NCBI GenBank assembly: GCA_017883485.1
Contig: JADGNM010000046.1
Coordinates: 1-11,418 of the forward strand
DNA from: Methanosarcina sp.
GTDB lineage: Archaea; Halobacteriota; Methanosarcinia; Methanosarcinales; Methanosarcinaceae
Length of the DNA: 11,418 bases
Direction of reading: 5' to 3'
Shown here: piece by piece, positions 136 to 10,313 of the stretch
Position numbering within the stretch: the first letter of the stretch is position 1
Layout: every line of letters starts with the position of its first letter
The notes under the pieces: generated by a model
Databases searched by the model: none
What the model was told of the DNA's origin: nothing
What the model saw: the letters and a program-made list of their open reading frames with translations, nothing else
Made by a program: the position numbers and the translations under genes

Positions 136-630
136 TCAGTTAACCTTTATTTCAACAGGTTCTTCTTCAGCGCAGCGTCTGAATGTAACCTCAAGCACTC
201 CATTTTTATAGCTTGCTGTTGCACTTTTTGGGTCCACGCGGACTGGGAGCTCAATGTCTTCCGAGTATTCGGAAGGGCCGATAACCTTGATTTCGAGGTT
301 TTGAGCTGTAGCACGTAGCATGAGATCTTCCTTTCCAACCTCAGGGAATTCTGCTAGGATGTGTAACATTTCCCCGTTTTCAAAAATATCAATTAAAGGA
401 TCTTTTGTTTCGGAGGGTAAGAAATTCCCTTCATTTTGAGAATATTCCGGAGCATTTCCGAACTCCCTGAATTCGGGATCTTCTCCCGGGCGCCGAATGA
501 TAGAGAATCCGTAAACGAAGGGAACGGATTCTCCCATTTCTTCCAGGATACTTTCGATTATTTCTTCCAAATTGTCAAAAAGTTCAGATCCAAAATCTTC
601 AAAGAAATCCTTTCTTTTTCTTATGCCCAC
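136..630 (-). CDS. hsp20: Small heat-shock protein, Hsp20/alpha-crystallin family (second of tandem pair)
   Basis: 164-residue ATP-independent holdase that would bind unfolding proteins in the cytoplasm and keep them refoldable. The alpha-crystallin domain spans about residues 76-152, with the family signature NGVLEV at 143-148. The C-terminal tail has an I-x-V motif (IKV, 161-163), used in the family to link dimers into oligomers. Residues 1-75 form a charged N-terminal arm that shares the YGFS...PGE.PE.REFGN stretch with the neighbouring Hsp20. The start is GTG, supported by AGAGGT at 638-643 (7-nt spacing). It begins 37 bp after the stop of the upstream hsp20 and probably shares its transcript. 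A recent-to-ancient tandem duplication is likely, because the two proteins align over their whole length but differ at many positions. The family call is very secure; the client range is unknown. Confidence 0.95.
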   Translation of the reverse strand: MGIRKRKDFFEDFGSELFDNLEEIIESILEEMGESVPFVYGFSIIRRPGEDPEFREFGNAPEYSQNEGNFLPSETKDPLIDIFENGEMLHILAEFPEVGKEDLMLRATAQNLEIKVIGPSEYSEDIELPVRVDPKSATASYKNGVLEVTFRRCAEEEPVEIKVN

Positions 631-667: not shown

Positions 668-1192
668 TTACTCAATATTTATTGAAGTTCGGGAACTGGA
701 TTCCAGCCGCTTAATGGTAACTTCCAGCACGCCGTTTTTGTATGTGGCTTTAGCACTCTGGGGGTCCACCTTCACGGGCAGCTCCACACGTTCGGAATAT
801 TTTGGATTCCCATCTATTGTTTCGATGTCAAGTATTAAATCAGTTGCGTTTAGTAGAATGTTTTCTTTCTCAATTCCAGGTATTTCAGCGATCACATGCA
901 CTTTGTCTTCGGTTTCCAGAATATCAATAAGGGGTTTTCTCGTGTCAAGATAACGCCTATCTCCAGTCTCTATCTGCTCAAACGTAGGGATATTCCCGAA
1001 TTCGCGAATTTCGGGATTCTCCCCTTGCCGATGAGTTACAGAGAAACCATAGATGAAGGGATGCTGTCCAAAATTTTCCAAGCTCATACCCATTGCCCTG
1101 TTGAGGCGATCAAAGATTTCATCCATATCGTGAACAGAATCGATTCTGAACATTTCATCGAAAAAGTTTCTTCTTCTATTATCTCTGTCCAT
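668..1192 (-). CDS. hsp20: Small heat-shock protein, Hsp20/alpha-crystallin family (first of tandem pair)
   Basis: 174-residue cytoplasmic holdase chaperone. The alpha-crystallin domain covers about residues 86-162, with NGVLEV at 153-158, and the C-terminus carries the canonical I-x-I motif (INI, 171-173) for oligomer assembly. The N-terminal arm (1-85) is Arg/Phe-rich and ends in the same YGFS...GE.PE.REFGN region as the next gene. The start is ATG with GGAG 7 nt upstream. It is the first gene of the hsp20 pair, lies 153 bp behind the cdc48 stop on the same strand, and has its own TATA-like box and dyad at 1225-1255. It can therefore be transcribed separately, or also receive read-through from the regulator-cdc48 unit. 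In Archaeoglobus the HSR1 operon likewise combines an HSR1 regulator, an Hsp20 and a Cdc48-type ATPase (recalled, not searched). Confidence 0.96.
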   Translation of the reverse strand: MDRDNRRRNFFDEMFRIDSVHDMDEIFDRLNRAMGMSLENFGQHPFIYGFSVTHRQGENPEIREFGNIPTFEQIETGDRRYLDTRKPLIDILETEDKVHVIAEIPGIEKENILLNATDLILDIETIDGNPKYSERVELPVKVDPQSAKATYKNGVLEVTIKRLESSSRTSINIE

Positions 1193-1345: not shown

Positions 1346-3610
1346 TTATTCAGCCTGAAGCAAATCTGGAATGTTTTTGTTTTCGATTTCTTTTTCCTGC
1401 TCTTCAGCCTCAAGGTCTTCTTCTGATTCAGTTGCATATTTAGCAAAGAGCTCGGAATTCTGTTCATATGACCTCATAGTCTCTCTGGATGTTGTAGGCT
1501 TAACGCGGCGGACTGCACGTTCAAAATGCTTCATTGAAATCTTGACTTCTCCTGCCTTCTCCTCAATATCTTTTCGGCCAATGCCTGGAGTAACTATCTC
1601 TCTTAGGGCAAGCATTGCAGCCTCCCTGCAGATGCCTTCAATATCTGCGCCCACATAACCTTCGGTCATATCAGCAAGCTGCGAGAGCTTGACATCCTCC
1701 GCAAGGGGTTTTCCCTGTGTATGGATCTCAAATATTTTTTCTCTGCTTGCTTTATCAGGCGGCTTGATATAGATTAGCCTGTCAAAACGGCCAGGCCTGA
1801 GCAGGGCAGGGTCCACCATATCCGGCCGGTTAGTGGCCGCAACTATGATCACGTCTTTAAGTTCCTCCACTCCATCCAGCTCGGTAAGGATTTGACTGAC
1901 AACTCTTTCTGAGACATGCGTATCGGAAACGGAGCTTCTTTGAGGAGCCATGGAATCAATTTCGTCAAAGAAGATTACAGTCGGAGCGGCTTGTTTTGCT
2001 TTCCTGAAAGTTTCCCTTATCGCACGTTCGGATTCACCCACATATTTGCTGAGCAGTTCCGGACCCTTTATACTGATGAAATTAGCCTCGCTTTCACTTG
2101 CAACAGCCTTTGCAAGCAAAGTTTTACCCGTGCCCGGGGGCCCGAATAGCAATATACCTCTAGGGGGCTTTACATTAATAGTGCTAAATATTTCAGGATA
2201 CTTCAGGGGCCATTCCACAGCTTCAATCAGTTCTTGCTTCGCGTTTTCAAGTCCGCCTATATCTTCCCAGCCTACATGCGGGACTTCAATATAAACCTCC
2301 CTCATGGCTGAAGGCTCTATGTTCTTCAGGGCTTCTCTAAAGTCTTCCTTTGTAACCACCAGATTGTCAAGGATCTCCTGTGGGATTTGTTCCTCTTCAA
2401 TATCGATTTCGGGAGTTATTCTTCTGAGAGCATGCATAGCAGCTTCCTTGCAGAGGGAAGATAGATCAGCTCCCACAAATCCATGAGTTACATCGGCAAT
2501 TTCACCGAGGCTTACATCCTGTTCAATAGGCATGCCTCTGGTATGAATGAGAAGAATTTGCTTCCTGCCATTCCGATCAGGAATTCCGATTTCTATTTCT
2601 CTGTCAAACCTACCGCCGCGGCGGAGAGCTTCATCTATCGAGTTCGGGCGATTTGTAGCTGCAATTACGACTACCTGACCTCTGTTCTTAAGCCCGTCCA
2701 TCAGGGACAGCAACTGGGCAACTACCCTGCGCTCCAGTTCTCCTGTGACTTCGCCTCTTTTAGGAGCTATGGAATCGATCTCATCTATAAATATGATTGA
2801 AGGTGCGTCTTTCTCAGCTTCTTCGAAAATCTCTCGGAGCTTCTGCTCACTCTCTCCGTAATACTTGGAAACGATCTCAGGGCCGCTTATAGTGATAAAA
2901 TTGGCGTCAGTTTCACTTGCAACTGCCTTTGCAATCAGTGTCTTGCCCGTTCCGGGCGGCCCACGCAGGAGAACCCCTTTGGGGGGCTCAATCCCAAGTT
3001 TCAGGAATAATTCTGGATGTCTTAGCGGCAGCTCGATCATTTCCCTGACAAGCTGAATTTCCCGCCTAAGCCCACCGATATCTTCATATGAGATGCCTCC
3101 TGGAATCTTCATTTCCTCAACAGATTTTTCCTTGATGACAATCTCCGTATCCTTGGTAACGACCACAGGCCCTGCAGGCTTTGTAGATGCAACTACAAAT
3201 GTCAAGGGGTTGCTTACAGTTTCAACCCGGATCTGCTGGCCCTTATTCAAAGGCCTTCCCTCAATTATTCTAAGAATGTAATGGGTACCTCCCACAAGCC
3301 TTACAGGCTGCGAAGGAGCGAGGGTAACTCTTTGAGCGTGTTTTGCCTGGACTTTTTTAATCGTGACCCTGTCGTCAATCCCTACTTTTGAATTGCTGCG
3401 CAGGTTTCCGTCCATACGGATCCTGTTATCCTGCTCGCGTTCTACGTTTGGCCAGACGATTGCGTAAGTTTTGGCTCTTCCTGAGATCTCTATTATATCC
3501 CCACTCACAAGCCCCATCTGCTGCATTAGCAGAGTATCTATTCTCGCAATTCCCCTGCCTACATCCTTATGATAAGCTTCAGCTACTCTCAGATTCGTTT
3601 CCTCAATCAT
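1346..3610 (-). CDS. cdc48: Cdc48/VAT (p97-like) double-ring AAA+ ATPase
   Basis: 754-residue ATP-driven unfoldase/segregase, cytoplasmic and hexameric in its family. An N-terminal substrate and adaptor-binding domain (about 1-165) precedes D1 (about 175-400) and D2 (about 448-720). D1 shows Walker A GPPGTGKT at 217-224, Walker B IIFIDEID at 272-279, sensor AATN at 317-320 and arginine-finger region GGRFDR at 332-337. D2 shows GPPGTGKT at 490-497, VIFFDEID at 545-552, AATN at 591-594 and RPGRFDR at 605-611. Both pore loops are aromatic (KYYG 249-252, KYVG 522-525), fitting archaeal threading enzymes. The tail (728-754) is acidic and ends LLQAE, without the hydrophobic-Tyr-X motif used to dock on the 20S proteasome. 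The ATG overlaps the upstream regulator stop by 8 nt, indicating translational coupling. Length and motifs are complete. Confidence 0.98.
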
Positions 3611-4298
3611 CTATTTTCAACTCCATCTCACATAGTTTCCAATAGTGCTGATTATTCTTAATACTGTACTCAACAAACCCTCTCTCAGCAAGATCTATCA
3701 GGTTATCATTGACAATGCTCGGGTGCAGGCGCAGGTTATAGCATAAGACAGCTAGAGTGGTTTCACTTTTCAGAAGCTCAAACAGAAGTTCACACTCTAT
3801 AGGGTTCTTGGCAACCTCTTCAATTGATTCCAGACAGCAGTCCATCAATTCCGTATACTCGGCTTGGAGCTGCTGCTGCATCTGCACAAGCTCTTCCTGC
3901 CTTATTTTAAGTTTTTGAAGTCTACTACTGAGTTTCAAAAAGAAGGATGATGACCTTTCCCTGGCAGCGGTCTCCTGATTCTCGGTAACCGAATGTTCTA
4001 CTTTTTTCTCCTTATCAAGAGCAATATCATAAAGTATCACGTTATAGGTGTATGGAGACACTGAGACCTCTAGCCGCATATTATTTGCGATATTAAAGTA
4101 CTTGCGCCTCTGTTCATCCACGCTGCACTCTATAAGTCCTGCCTGCTCAAGCAGGTTAAGATGACTTATTATGGCTTTAGGCCCTACTCCCAGCCTGCCC
4201 GAGATCTCACTGACATAGCAGGGGCGGCTTGCAAGAAGCTGAATAATCTTCCTGCGATTTTCGTTTCCCAGAATGTCAAGTAATGTTGCAGGATCCAT
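3603..4298 (-). CDS. Winged-helix (ArsR-type) regulator, probable HSR1-like heat-shock repressor
   Basis: 231-residue cytoplasmic DNA-binding protein. An ArsR-like winged helix-turn-helix occupies about residues 4-75, with the recognition helix around 39-53 ([18 protein letters not shown] region). A Gln/Glu/Lys-rich stretch at about 118-150 is a likely coiled-coil dimerisation helix, and 160-225 looks like a second winged-helix-like domain. The start is ATG with the purine-rich AGGGGGAG almost directly upstream. Its last codons overlap the first of cdc48 (ATGATTGA), and the next genes downstream are two hsp20s. The same neighbourhood is known for Archaeoglobus HSR1, an autorepressor of an HSR1-Hsp20-ATPase operon. 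The dyad TAAC-N5-GTTA in its own promoter supports autoregulation. The DNA-binding class is firm; the HSR1 role is inferred from context. Confidence 0.85.
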
Positions 4299-4461
4299 TT
4301 CTCCCCCTATGATAGTCGTCGAAATCTTGCAGACCTTCAGTAATAATATTCAACTTTTGCATTTTGTATATCTTTCGGATAATTTGTTAACCATGTCGCC
4401 CTGAGTGAATTCTGACAAGTTTGCAAAAAATCCCTGCCCAGTAATTTTACCCAGAAGACTG

Positions 4462-4479
4462 ATGCATGTGGATATGCAT
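4462..4479 (-). repeat. ATGCAT-N6-ATGCAT repeat in the regulator leader
   Basis: Two self-complementary ATGCAT hexamers (4462-4467, 4474-4479) would form a 6-bp stem with a 6-nt loop near the 5' end of the predicted mRNA, or could be a further protein site about 10-25 bp beyond the start of transcription. Related in sequence to the dyad at 26-45. Confidence 0.4.
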
Positions 4480-4483
4480 TAGA

Positions 4484-4502
4484 TAGTAACCAGTAGTTAT
4501 TA
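4484..4502 (-). promoter_or_regulatory. Candidate HSR1-type operator TA-x-TAAC-N5-GTTA-x-TA
   Basis: The core arms TAAC (4487-4490) and GTTA (4496-4499) are separated by CAGTA, and TA/TA pairs extend the dyad after one mismatch on each side. It lies 8 bp downstream of the TATA box of the regulator gene, across the expected transcription start. The core equals the inner eight specified bases of the CTAAC-N5-GTTAG palindrome that I recall for A. fulgidus HSR1. It is seen in the sequence; its identity as operator is inferred. Confidence 0.6.
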
Positions 4503-4509
4503 GTGATAC

Positions 4510-4517
4510 TATATAAA
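4510..4517 (-). promoter_or_regulatory. TATA box of the regulator-cdc48 operon
   Basis: On the minus strand TTTATATA stands in a suitable archaeal promoter context; initiation is expected near 4487, giving a leader of about 190 nt before the ATG at 4298. A short inverted repeat GATAC (4505-4509) and GTATC (4523-4527) brackets the box. This and the following dyads are what the 361-bp gap 4299-4659 holds; I see no convincing gene in it. Confidence 0.6.
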
Positions 4518-6394: not shown

Positions 6395-7174
6395 ATGGAT
6401 AAAGATTTAATAGACCTGCTTTTCATGTCCCAGAAAAGGAGAGATCTTTTGCTCCTGCTCAAAAATGGAGGAAGAAAAATAGAAGATATTGTATCTATTC
6501 TGCACGTTACACCGACAGGAATGCTTCCCCAAATCAAGAAATTGAAGGAGGAAAGTCTGATCTTTCAGGAAAACAAAGAATATAAACTTACTCCTCTTGC
6601 AGAAATATTGGTCGAAAAAATGGAGCCTTTGATAAATACTCTGGAGGTTATTGAGGAAAACTTGAATTACTGGCAAGAACGTGATCTTAGCAGCATACCC
6701 CATTCTTTCCTTGAAAGGCTTAATGAGCTAAAATCCTGTTCTCTGATTGAGCCCGATCCGGATAACATTTTTGAACCTCCCAACATCTTTCTGGAAAACA
6801 TACGAAAATCAAAAAAGATACTCTCGCTTTCATCGATATTTCATCCAATCTTCTCCGAAATATTTCAGAGAAAAGGAGAGGATACCGAAATAACCCTTAT
6901 AGTGACGCAAAAAATTGATGAAAGATTGAAAAATGATTTTGAAAAAGAGCTGGAAGTTTATATGGCGGGGGAAAAAAGGAGGCTTTTAGTCTGCGTTGGT
7001 GAGTTAAAGATAGCCATGATTATCAAAACTGAGTATTTCATGAGTGCAGATTTTCTTACCTATAAAGGAGCATTTGACCAGGAGACTATAATAGGCATTG
7101 AGCCTGCACCTATGAAGTGGGCTGAAGATCTGATCCTGCACTATAGAGATAAAGCTCAGGAAATAAAGGGATAA
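6395..7174 (+). CDS. FilR1-family (DUF1724) winged-helix transcriptional regulator
   Basis: 259-residue cytoplasmic DNA-binding protein. A winged helix-turn-helix spans about residues 5-75 (LIDLLFMSQKRRDLLLLL at the front, HVTPTGMLPQIKKLKEE as turn and recognition helix). The effector domain at about 125-250 is of the kind named after the methanogenesis regulator FilR1, ending with the family-like IGIEPAPMKWAEDLILHY stretch. The length fits the family. The ATG at 6395 is preceded by AAGTGA at a usable distance, and the N-terminus matches the usual family start. It is monocistronic: divergent from the phosphoribosyltransferase and closed by a strong terminator at 7231-7270. Methanosarcina carry many such paralogues; the ligand and target genes of this one are unknown. 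The family call is confident, the target is not. Confidence 0.9.
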   Translation: MDKDLIDLLFMSQKRRDLLLLLKNGGRKIEDIVSILHVTPTGMLPQIKKLKEESLIFQENKEYKLTPLAEILVEKMEPLINTLEVIEENLNYWQERDLSSIPHSFLERLNELKSCSLIEPDPDNIFEPPNIFLENIRKSKKILSLSSIFHPIFSEIFQRKGEDTEITLIVTQKIDERLKNDFEKELEVYMAGEKRRLLVCVGELKIAMIIKTEYFMSADFLTYKGAFDQETIIGIEPAPMKWAEDLILHYRDKAQEIKG

Positions 7175-7434: not shown

Positions 7435-8316
7435 ATGAAAAAAGTACCAAACAATAAATTTGTAAAACATATGATAATCATGACAACCCTGCTTCTGGTC
7501 TGTACAATCATTCTCTCCGGCTGTGTTAATAAGGGACAGAATAGTACGGAGACTAAACCGGCAGGTAACATAAGTCCTACAGATAATTTAACCCCAGCAG
7601 ATAACGCAACCAGCGGTCAGGAAACTAATGGGAAAGAGTACATATACGGCACTGCAGTTGTGGAAACAATTCAAGTTTTAATGCTGGAATCTTTCCCAGT
7701 AAAGGTACAGGTGGTAGCACAAGGTTACCTGCCTGATAGCTGTACTGAGATTAACGAGGTAAAAACTGAAAAGGAAGAAAACAACTTTAAAATTAATATC
7801 AGCACTAAGCGCCAGAAAGACGCAGTCTGTACGCAGGCGATAGTACCCTTCAATAAAACAATACCCCTTGATGCGCAAGGACTTAAAGCCGGGAACTACA
7901 CAGTTAATGTAAATGGAGTAAGGGAATCATTCGAACTTGCGGTTGATAACATGTTAAATAAGCAGCCCAACCATATGCCGCCGAGACAGCAGGTGATAAC
8001 CGAATCTGACGACGGAAAGAACATAAGCCTCAAGAATGGAGAGGCTTTTTATCTGAGACTCAAGGAAAACCCGACTACAGGTTATTCCTGGGAACTAAAC
8101 CTGAGCCAGGGACTCAATAACGTCTCCGATAACTATTATCCTCCTGAGTCTTCTAATGACAATAAACAACCTCTAGTTGGTGCCGGAGGGGTCCATATCT
8201 GGGAAATAAAAGCCGTGACTGAAGGCAGCCAACAGGTAAAAGGTATATATAAAAGACCCTGGGAGAATATAACCGGCACGGAAGATAACTTTACGCTTAA
8301 TGTTGAAGTTTTGTGA
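7435..8316 (+). CDS. Secreted lipoprotein with C-terminal chagasin-like (I42) cysteine-protease inhibitor domain
   Basis: 293 residues. A lipoprotein signal (about 1-30) has a basic N-region, a hydrophobic core and the lipobox LSGC with Cys30 as the lipidation site, so the protein is anchored on the outside of the membrane. Residues 31-65 are a Thr/Asn-rich linker. The middle domain (about 68-170) carries Cys103 and Cys132 in PDSCTEI and DAVCTQAIVPF contexts, probably a disulfide, and ends GNYTVNVNG. The C-terminal domain (about 185-293) has all three inhibitor loops of chagasin: NPTTGYSWE (212-220), VGAGG (248-252) and RPWE (274-277). In that family these loops block the cleft of papain-like peptidases. 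The start is ATG with AGAGGGA upstream. No operon partner. Role probably in protection from secreted proteases or control of the cell's own; target unknown. Confidence 0.9.
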   Translation: MKKVPNNKFVKHMIIMTTLLLVCTIILSGCVNKGQNSTETKPAGNISPTDNLTPADNATSGQETNGKEYIYGTAVVETIQVLMLESFPVKVQVVAQGYLPDSCTEINEVKTEKEENNFKINISTKRQKDAVCTQAIVPFNKTIPLDAQGLKAGNYTVNVNGVRESFELAVDNMLNKQPNHMPPRQQVITESDDGKNISLKNGEAFYLRLKENPTTGYSWELNLSQGLNNVSDNYYPPESSNDNKQPLVGAGGVHIWEIKAVTEGSQQVKGIYKRPWENITGTEDNFTLNVEVL

Positions 8317-8618: not shown

Positions 8619-8619
8619 T

Positions 8620-8694
8620 AGCGGGGTGGGGTAGCCAGGAGATCCCGACGGGCTCATAACCCGTAGACCGATGGTTCGAATCCATCCCCCGCTA
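8620..8694 (+). tRNA. Initiator tRNA-Met (CAU)
   Basis: A 75-nt cloverleaf folds by eye. The acceptor is AGCGGGG/CCCCGCT with discriminator A, the anticodon arm ACGGG-CTCATAA-CCCGT, and the T arm GATGG-TTCGAAT-CCATC. The D arm has GGG/CCC. The A1-U72 end pair and the three consecutive G-C pairs flanking the anticodon loop mark it as initiator rather than elongator tRNA-Met. CCA is not encoded and no intron is present. It is free-standing, with its own TATA box upstream, and probably feeds all start codons including the GTG starts in this window. Confidence 0.95.
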
Positions 8695-8707
8695 TAATGA
8701 AGTTCTC

Positions 8708-8981: not shown

Positions 8982-10313
8982 ATGGTAATGGAAAAACTAG
9001 GAGACTCCTTACAGGGGGCACTCAAAAAGCTGATCGGCGCGGGGAGAATTGATGAGCGCACGGTCAACGAAGTAATAAAGGATATCCAGCGGGCTCTGCT
9101 CCAGGCCGATGTAAACGTAAAACTAGTTATGGCGATGTCCCAGAGGATCAAAGAGCGTGCGATGAAAGAAGAACCTCCTGCAGGAATGAACCCGAGGGAA
9201 CATGTAATTCGCATTGTCTACCAGGAACTCATGGAGATAATTGGTAAGGGAGCGGATATCCAGCTTAAACCCCAGACCATTATGATGGTTGGGCTGCAAG
9301 GAAGCGGAAAAACCACAAGTGTCGCAAAGCTTGCCCGCTACTTTCAGAGAAAAGGACTTAAAGCAGGAGTTATTGCCGCAGATACTTTCCGTCCGGGAGC
9401 CTATCACCAGCTTAAAACTCTATGTGACAAGCTCAATGTCGCTTTTTATGGGGAAGAAGGAAATCCTGATGCCGTAATGATTACCAGAAACGGGCTCAAG
9501 GCTCTTGAAAAATACGATGTAAAAATTGTGGACACCGCAGGCAGGCATGCTCTTGAAGCCGAACTCATAGATGAGATGGAACGAATTAATGCTGCTGCAA
9601 AGCCAGACCACAAGTTTATGGTTCTGGATGCAGGTATAGGACAGCAGGCAAGCCAGCAAGCCCATGCATTTAACGATTCCGTACGGATTACAGGCGTAAT
9701 TATAACTAAACTTGACGGTACAGCAAAGGGAGGCGGAGCCCTTTCAGCTGTTTCTGAAACAAAAGCTCCTATAGCCTTCATAGGGATTGGGGAAACTCCG
9801 GAGGATTTCGAGAAGTTCGAAGCTGACAGATTCATCTCAAGACTGCTCGGCATGGGAGACCTCAAAAGCTTGATGGAAAAAGCTGAGGAGACACTGAGCG
9901 AAGAAGATGTTAATGTTGAAGCCATGATGCAGGGACGCTTCACTCTCAAGGACCTGTACAAACAGATTGAAGCCATGAACAAGATGGGACCTCTCAAACA
10001 GATAATGTCCATGCTGCCCATGGGAATGGGAGGTATGGGAGGCATGAAGTTATCAGACGAAATGTTCCAGGCTACCAGTGACAAGATGAAGAATTATAGG
10101 GTCATCATGGACTCAATGACAGAAGAGGAAATGTCAGACCCCAAACTCATAGGAGGTTCACGAATCAAAAGGATTTCGAGGGGCTCGGGCTGCAGTCCTG
10201 AAGAGGTAAGAGAGCTTCTGAAATACCACAAGACCATGCAAACAGCCTTTAAAGGCTTTAAAGGCGGAAAATTCAATATTCAGAAGATGATGAAGAAAAA
10301 AATCGGGATGTAA
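8982..10313 (+). CDS. srp54: Signal recognition particle GTPase SRP54
   Basis: 443 residues. It binds signal sequences emerging from the ribosome and, with 7S RNA, SRP19 and the FtsY receptor, targets nascent membrane and secreted proteins to the translocon. The N domain (1-90) is helical. The G domain (about 95-290) has G1 GLQGSGKTT at 104-112, G2 DTFRPGA at 134-140, G3 DTAGR at 184-188, and G4 TKLD at 242-245. The M domain (about 300-443) has the Met/Gly-rich finger loop near 340-355 ([14 protein letters not shown]) and the RNA-binding helix-turn-helix GSGCSPEEV at 401-409. ATG 8982 ([10 protein letters not shown]) matches family N-termini; AGGA lies about 10 nt upstream. An ATG two codons on is possible. 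It is complete, monocistronic, and normal in length. Confidence 0.98.

Follow-up and report, generated by a model that had tools for sequence, protein, structure and literature searches.

A conserved TAAC-N5-GTTA dyad at the promoter of a predicted HSR1-type heat-shock operon in Methanosarcina

Genes and promoter of the locus

The stretch of Methanosarcina DNA analysed here, called the window, is 11,418 nucleotides long and comes from a MAG of 2.83 Mb that is 82% complete. Its minus strand carries, in this order, an ArsR-type regulator (4298-3603), cdc48 (3610-1346) and two hsp20 genes (1192-668 and 630-136), with the cdc48 start sharing 8 bp with the 3' end of the regulator gene. This is the gene set named in the original prediction, and it is borne out by the positions of the open reading frames together with domain and family models. 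The features of the promoter and the operon are as follows.

4510..4517, minus strand: TATA box TTTATATA, read from the promoter sequence
4487..4499, minus strand: core operator dyad TAAC-TACTG-GTTA, a predicted HSR1 site by exact motif match
4482..4499, minus strand: putative extended operator TAACTACTGGTTA-C-TATC, read from the sequence as the dyad, 1 bp and a third half-site TATC (4485-4482)
4484..4489, minus strand: expected transcription start region, placed by the usual archaeal TATA-to-start distance
4299..4486, minus strand: presumed 5' leader of ~190 nt, from sequence positions
3603..4298, minus strand: HSR1-like ArsR-type regulator, 231 aa (PF01022, E 5.3e-16)
1346..3610, minus strand: cdc48 AAA ATPase, 754 aa (TIGR01243, 1087.7 bits, cut-off 802.65)
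668..1192, minus strand: first hsp20, 174 aa (NF041800, 163.3 bits, cut-off 140; PF00011)
136..630, minus strand: second hsp20, 164 aa (PF00011, E 4e-5; NF041800, 132 bits, just under the cut-off of 140)

The layout of regulator, then cdc48, then hsp20 is a mark of the HSR1 operon, and it is found in the window and in relatives too. Elsewhere in the window, a gene for OapC, an origin-associated protein (PF09845, 4660-5172, minus strand), precedes the heat-shock promoter and is oriented alike. On the plus strand, two successive genes encode proteins with a FilR1 middle domain (6395-7174) and a chagasin-family (I42) inhibitor domain (7435-8316), and a tRNA-Met (CAT) at 8619-8695 stands upstream of an ORF at 8982-10313 that is presumably SRP54.

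The exact motif TAACN5GTTA occurs once in the window, at 4487-4499 on the gene strand (TAACTACTGGTTA), confirming the dyad that had been noted in front of the hsr1-like gene. Its location near a TATA box ahead of the regulator's own gene is a further mark of HSR1. The gap between the two had been given as 8 bp; it is 10 bp from TTTATATA, and 8 bp results only when the box is taken as TTTATATAGT. The claimed match to the A. fulgidus operator holds for the core TAAC-N5-GTTA and not for its ends, as the outermost C and G of the full published motif CTAAC-N5-GTTAG are absent and the flanks in the window are A and C (ATAAC...GTTAC). The outer C/G pair is present at only 17/48 Methanosarcinaceae loci and 29/43 loci of other families, so it is no constant part of the conserved site, and the window was therefore assigned by the core.

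The best PDB match of the regulator was 2p4w (E 3.5e-21; profile E 2.2e-34), titled there only as an arsR-family regulator and taken by us to be Phr of P. furiosus. The regulator also aligned over nearly its full length (228 columns, 34% identity) with the protein at locus L096 of genome G215; we take this genome to be A. fulgidus DSM 4304, and HSR1 of that organism to be AF1298. A profile of the regulator gave one match each at E<=1e-20 in its own genome and in G215. With the NCBIfam Phr model NF053602 the regulator scored 96.3 bits against a cut-off of 320 and did not pass; by sequence comparison it is a homologue of Phr that is not classed as Phr. The metalloregulator model NF033788 was not passed either (53.2 bits against 55). 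The G215 protein does pass NF033788, with 74.1 bits, which implies that this model cannot separate heat from metal regulators. The AlphaFold model of the regulator is weak (mean pLDDT 64.9, pTM 0.32, 14 sequences).

Conservation of the dyad and its absence with the regulator

Among 111 Methanosarcinaceae genomes, 55 had a regulator match at E<=1e-15 and 56 did not, the best match in the latter reaching 9.9e-8. Four of the 55 genomes were left out of the locus set (G001, in which the gene is broken, and G011-G013). From the distinct regulator loci, which by coincidence also number 55, we set aside L055, L056, L057, L075, L076 and L077, which are from Methanimicrococcus and similar genomes, and the ANME-2 locus L054, which was counted with the other families as L088, leaving 48. 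The exact dyad lies within 500 bp upstream of the regulator at 45 of these 48 loci, and the remaining three carry it with one mismatch. When the 256 tetramer dyads with a spacer of 5 were compared, TAAC ranked first with 45/48 promoters and the runner-up reached 14/48; with other spacers from 0 to 19, TAAC/GTTA was found in at most 6/48. A TATA box (>=7/8 match) starts 18 bp ahead of the dyad at 42/48 loci, as do 2/4 weaker boxes; two boxes are at 20 bp. The distance from the dyad to the ATG ranges from 65 to 485 bp. A conserved dyad at a nearly fixed distance from TATA is the sequence pattern expected of an operator coupled to the core promoter.

These counts bear on whether the dyad is a chance occurrence in an AT-rich promoter. 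By number the motif shows no excess in the window's MAG, which holds 22 exact sites (~0.09 per 11.4 kb), fewer than the 50 of the reversed control, as chance would allow. The conservation at 45/48 orthologs, against a mean of 0.86 and a maximum of 3 in mononucleotide shuffles, and the positional lock to TATA nonetheless refute this explanation, and we regard its probability as negligible.

The six Methanimicrococcus-type loci have no dyad at <=1 mismatch within 500 bp. Five of them (L055, L057 and L075-L077) have no cdc48 match next to the regulator in the stretch covered; L056 has an AAA ATPase that is 41% identical, and its inclusion gives an exact dyad at 45/49 loci. In Methanimicrococcus-like genomes the regulator domain is found inside a longer open frame, of 358-389 codons in six genomes of genus g6.

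By profile search, 284/392 genomes of the phylum have the regulator, and 77 loci beyond the family were taken in two batches. Batch 1, with 47 loci, consisted of the best-scoring matches of diverse families plus automatic loci. At 43 of these loci, spread over 10 families, cdc48 follows the regulator in every case; the dyad is exact within 200 bp upstream in 40 of them and has one mismatch in 3. The original prediction had named conservation of the dyad in orthologous promoters as a point on which it could fail; the dyad proved to be exact in 45/48 and 40/43 upstream regions. L125, L126 and L134 have neither cdc48 nor dyad, and L124 has no dyad, on a contig that stops 133 bp beyond the regulator, too soon to judge cdc48 linkage. 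L096, on a single contig of 2,178,400 bp, has a gene reading as TFB on one side and cdc48 and hsp20 downstream, neighbours that fit A. fulgidus. Its promoter, ctttatataccataaacCTAACATAAAGTTAGtaacc, contains CTAAC-ATAAA-GTTAG ahead of the regulator, cdc48 and hsp20, the same as the HSR1 motif given in the available part of PMC9133787.

Batch 2 comprised 30 further genomes, mostly of weaker-scoring families. Six of its loci are cdc48-linked or belong to genus g51; the dyad is exact at L259, L261, L263 and L265, has one mismatch at L282 and is missing at L269. Family f11 contributed one exact site and one with a mismatch, with cdc48 not seen. Two further sets are referred to by inferred class names, Methanomicrobia-like (f7, f15, f18, f24, f25 and f26) and haloarchaea-like. 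No cdc48 was matched in the stretch covered at any of the 16 Methanomicrobia-like loci, of which 3 carry an exact site, 10 a site with one mismatch, in all cases TAAC-N5-GTAA, and 3 none; here the site lies immediately before the start codon. The idea that the site is confined to cdc48-linked regulators is refuted by these loci. The next gene was given for 8/16 of them and three were tested: one weakly resembles an sHSP (NF041800 E 8.7e-5) and has a weak CS domain, another has no more than a low HSP20-like Pfam score (0.095), and the third gave nothing. Among the six haloarchaea-like loci of this batch one site is exact, one has one mismatch and four loci have none, and overall 7/9 haloarchaea-like loci are without a site at <=1 mismatch. 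Regulator loci without a site include L056, L124, L262, L267, L269, L281 and five Methanimicrococcus-like ones.

Five Methanosarcinaceae genera (g7, g9, g10, g11 and g12) gave no regulator match at E<=1e-15. A search for cdc48 covered 22 genomes, including 19 of the 56 regulator-less ones, and we examined 19 loci, with L173-L183 left out. The 18 cdc48 loci from these five genera have no hsp20 match in the flank (<=1.5 kb downstream; shorter for L167) and no operator-like site. The single exact dyad among them, at L157, lies 356 bp upstream, inside an open frame and with no TATA before it, and a few one-mismatch copies are scattered over the regulator-less loci. L154, the sole examined locus with the regulator, has both the site and hsp20. 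In G034 there is no cdc48 above ~60% identity, and the others have one at 66-72%. The regulator and the operator are thus missing together in five genera. This result bears on two alternatives, that the dyad is the site of a different DNA-binding protein or that it is a core-promoter element shared by genes of this class; its near-fixed distance from TATA and its overlap with the expected start would suit a core element. The dyad instead tracks the regulator, as it is missing from the 18 regulator-less cdc48 loci and is kept at 13/16 Methanomicrobia-like loci that have the regulator and no cdc48 in the stretch covered; we judge both alternatives together to be very unlikely.

Extended operator and genome-wide occurrence

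A TAAC-like half-site follows 1 bp past the dyad, as TAAC or TATC at 41/48 Methanosarcinaceae loci and as TAAC at 29/43 loci of other families. All five groups compared show a +14 peak in the dyad's offset profile, and in four of them no peak is higher; in the Methanosarcina group it is barely above +10, in g14 it is exceeded by +42, and smaller peaks occur at +4. A second dyad exactly 14 bp on, each with <=1 mismatch, is present at 26/91 loci, against a mean of 0.07 and a maximum of 1 in shuffles. L064 has four copies of the dyad and L090 has five; the window keeps the dyad and TATC, and G215 has one dyad and the half-site. The sequence TAACTNNNGGTTASTANC occurs once per genome in 25/30 Methanosarcina genomes and is absent in the other 5, with 0 matches for the reversed control, and each of the 25 matches stands before the regulator gene and in its orientation. 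These sequence patterns suggest that the operator probably extends to the third half-site.

Scans with the core alone gave no sign of a wide regulon. Across the 30 Methanosarcina genomes, the 13-bp core TAACTNNNGGTTA was found at 203 sites against 208 for the control, and TATATA-N10-dyad with one mismatch allowed at 139 against 149. The original prediction had proposed a genome scan for the dyad near TATA boxes; enrichment was not seen, and the scan did yield an unlinked hsp20 promoter that recurs as an ortholog in six genomes and stands in front of a 152-aa hsp20 remote from the operon. This promoter was picked for its recurrence from the TATATA-N10-dyad list, which is itself not enriched, and 18 of the 139 places were opened. 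The other recurrent groups (an ASKHA-type activator gene, a peroxiredoxin, a TPR-like gene and repeats, all named by eye) were ruled out as they are not heat-shock genes by eye and their dyad is mostly imperfect. The promoter of a twin-arginine, hydrogenase-small-subunit-like gene (by eye; three genomes) has a mismatched half-site and was judged to be inherited background.

Orthologs of this solo hsp20, at ~70% identity or more, are found in 25/30 Methanosarcina genomes and not in the MAG of the window. The pattern TATA-N10-dyad-N-TAAC, with three TATA variants, scores >=18/20 in 24/25 of their promoters, the exception being L201; for L190 a 760-bp upstream stretch was required. The same threshold was reached by 0/4 hsp20 paralogs of ~50% identity and 0/1000 shuffled upstream regions. 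Of these 24 promoters, 6 carry an exact dyad, 11 a dyad with one mismatch and 7 a dyad with two. The unlinked hsp20 is therefore, as far as promoter sequence can tell, probably under the same regulator in most Methanosarcina.

A pattern written to cover both promoter types, and hence circular for the operon and the solo hsp20, matched 62 places in the 30 genomes against a control total of 9. The 44 exact matches comprise 20 at the operon, 24 at the solo hsp20 and none elsewhere; the 18 with one mismatch are 9 at the operon and 9 others, one of which is the operon site on the opposite strand. At this stringency, the full architecture rises above control in the 30 Methanosarcina genomes at these two promoters and nowhere beyond them, which also argues against a core-promoter element. 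A scan with TAACNNNNNGTTASTAAC covered 30 genomes from 22 genera, the majority picked for having a known regulator promoter. It matched in 29/30 genomes, with 43/48 places at the regulator and 5 elsewhere, against 3 in the control. At L248, in a family-f5 genome (G351), a TATA box and TAACCTGAAGTTA-G-TAAC near base 2138 (gene strand) stand directly upstream of an HtrA-like protease gene. The protease has Trypsin_2 and PDZ domains and scores under the NCBIfam HtrA cut-offs; with its well-placed TATA, the gene is a candidate for an extra HSR1 target. L250, in G215, has a second well-placed TATA with TAACGAGAAGTTA-C-TAAC before a gene for a 69-codon hydrophobic peptide, just upstream of a purA-like gene (named by eye). 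The other off-regulator places, L249, L251 and L252, are unlike such promoters.

The solo hsp20 genes (L184-L208) have a leader of ~370-670 nt from operator to start codon, partly conserved over 24 loci. A structured RNA was sought here and set aside: RNAalifold on 19/24 leaders gave a weak -8.78 kcal/mol with an unfavourable covariation term of +0.58, and pairing in four hand-picked stems was 93.8%, compared with 92.6% for shuffles, while covariation was slight. An Rfam scan returned no match except a tRNA in five sources. That the leader is an RNA element is only a possibility.

Predicted circuit and comparison with known regulators

The site, its position and conservation, its joint absence with the regulator and a second promoter like it are observed. 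The HSR1-type reading of the original prediction is supported by the conserved dyad, by the 34% alignment to the G215 protein with its CTAAC-N5-GTTAG promoter and by the joint absence in five genera. We consider it highly likely that the HSR1-type regulator, whose gene comes next, has its operator at 4482-4499, and that the operon is autorepressed and heat-induced; binding, repression, the heat signal and the exclusion of polymerase are what we infer here. Weighing against this reading are the lack of genome-wide enrichment of the core, the missing C/G flanks in the window, the regulator loci that have no site and the inexact dyad in most solo hsp20 promoters. A regulator dimer would sit on TAAC-N5-GTTA, with further contacts at the third half-site, between TATA and the expected start. 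The usual archaeal TATA-to-start distance puts the start where the dyad ends on its downstream side; a dimer bound there would spare TATA and block polymerase. TBP and TFB may thus still bind while RNA polymerase would be kept out, as reported for Phr (PMC9133787). The regulator, cdc48 and the two hsp20 genes would be autorepressed as one operon, which is suggested by the gene order, with the regulator encoded in its own operon. Heat would weaken binding and induce the operon until newly made regulator shuts it off, and in most Methanosarcina one unlinked hsp20 is probably under the same protein.

Heat as the signal is proposed from the analogy with Phr and HSR1 and from the nature of the targets. 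The regulator might bind the dyad and answer mainly to some other signal (redox, metal, misfolded protein or salt), with no heat switch in mesophilic methanogens. For M. barkeri, Zhang 2006 reportedly describes a heat-shock and air microarray. A different signal would suit an ArsR-family protein with a cysteine, Cys27, that never varies in alignments A1 and A3 but does in the wider A2. Both predicted targets, however, encode heat-shock proteins, and the related Phr and HSR1 respond to heat according to the available parts of PMC9133787, PMC5852551 and PMC10746257; we hold a signal other than heat to be unlikely.

Beyond the predicted heat-responsive operon, a broader reading is tentative, and our doubt outweighs our confidence in it. 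HSR1-type repressors might read a phased half-site array, TAAC-N5-GTTA-N-TAAC-N5-GTTA, with a 14-bp pitch, rather than a single dyad. On it, neighbouring dimers would act cooperatively over the start, and copy number and decay of copies would set the heat set-point; the phylum's ancestor would already have had the switch, and one Methanosarcinaceae branch would have lost or replaced it.

A 2022 review, in its available part, lists no archaeal heat-shock regulators other than Phr and HSR1, and these two come from hyperthermophiles (PMC9133787). The present results give Methanosarcina a specific predicted regulator, an operator and a small regulon. The genus has genetic tools, and natural variation in array length together with the natural absence of the whole switch is available for comparison, so it becomes directly testable whether the archaeal repressor mechanism operates at moderate temperatures and what sets its threshold. 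In the accessible text of the open-licence literature we found no description of this operator in Methanosarcina, and an earlier prediction is possible; within that literature we have not seen in print the phylum-wide conservation of the operator, the third half-site with its 14-bp arrays, the second hsp20 target or the joint absence in five genera.

By its sequence features the circuit is of the HSR1 kind. For HSR1 of A. fulgidus (Rohlin et al. 2005) the motif CTAAC-N5-GTTAG is reported in the available text of PMC9133787. Similar to the HSR1 operon, the window has the ArsR-type regulator first, with cdc48 and hsp20, and TAAC-N5-GTTA just downstream of TATA, and the proteins share 34% identity over nearly their whole length. 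Contrary to HSR1, the flanks of the dyad are A/C rather than C/G, there are two hsp20 genes (one was seen at L096), the leader is ~190 nt, most Methanosarcina have an extra unlinked hsp20, and the host, judging by its genus, is mesophilic.

Phr represses hsp20 and other heat genes and binds over the transcription start, as described in the available parts of PMC9133787 and PMC10746257. Its structure, 2p4w, is the nearest solved relative of the window regulator. The published Phr elements, however, are TTTA, TGGTAA and AAAA in 29 bp rather than TAAC-N5-GTTA, the window protein falls under the NCBIfam Phr cut-off, and Phr controls more genes than the predicted regulon here, ten or more in the source text available. 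AMET1_0853 of Methanonatronarchaeum is a heat-up-regulated ArsR regulator (arCOG01684), for which, unlike the window, the available part of PMC5852551 describes no operator. The same source places Phr, HSR1 and AMET1_0853 in one family, and proposes that this regulator family and its heat-shock role are ancestral in Euryarchaeota.
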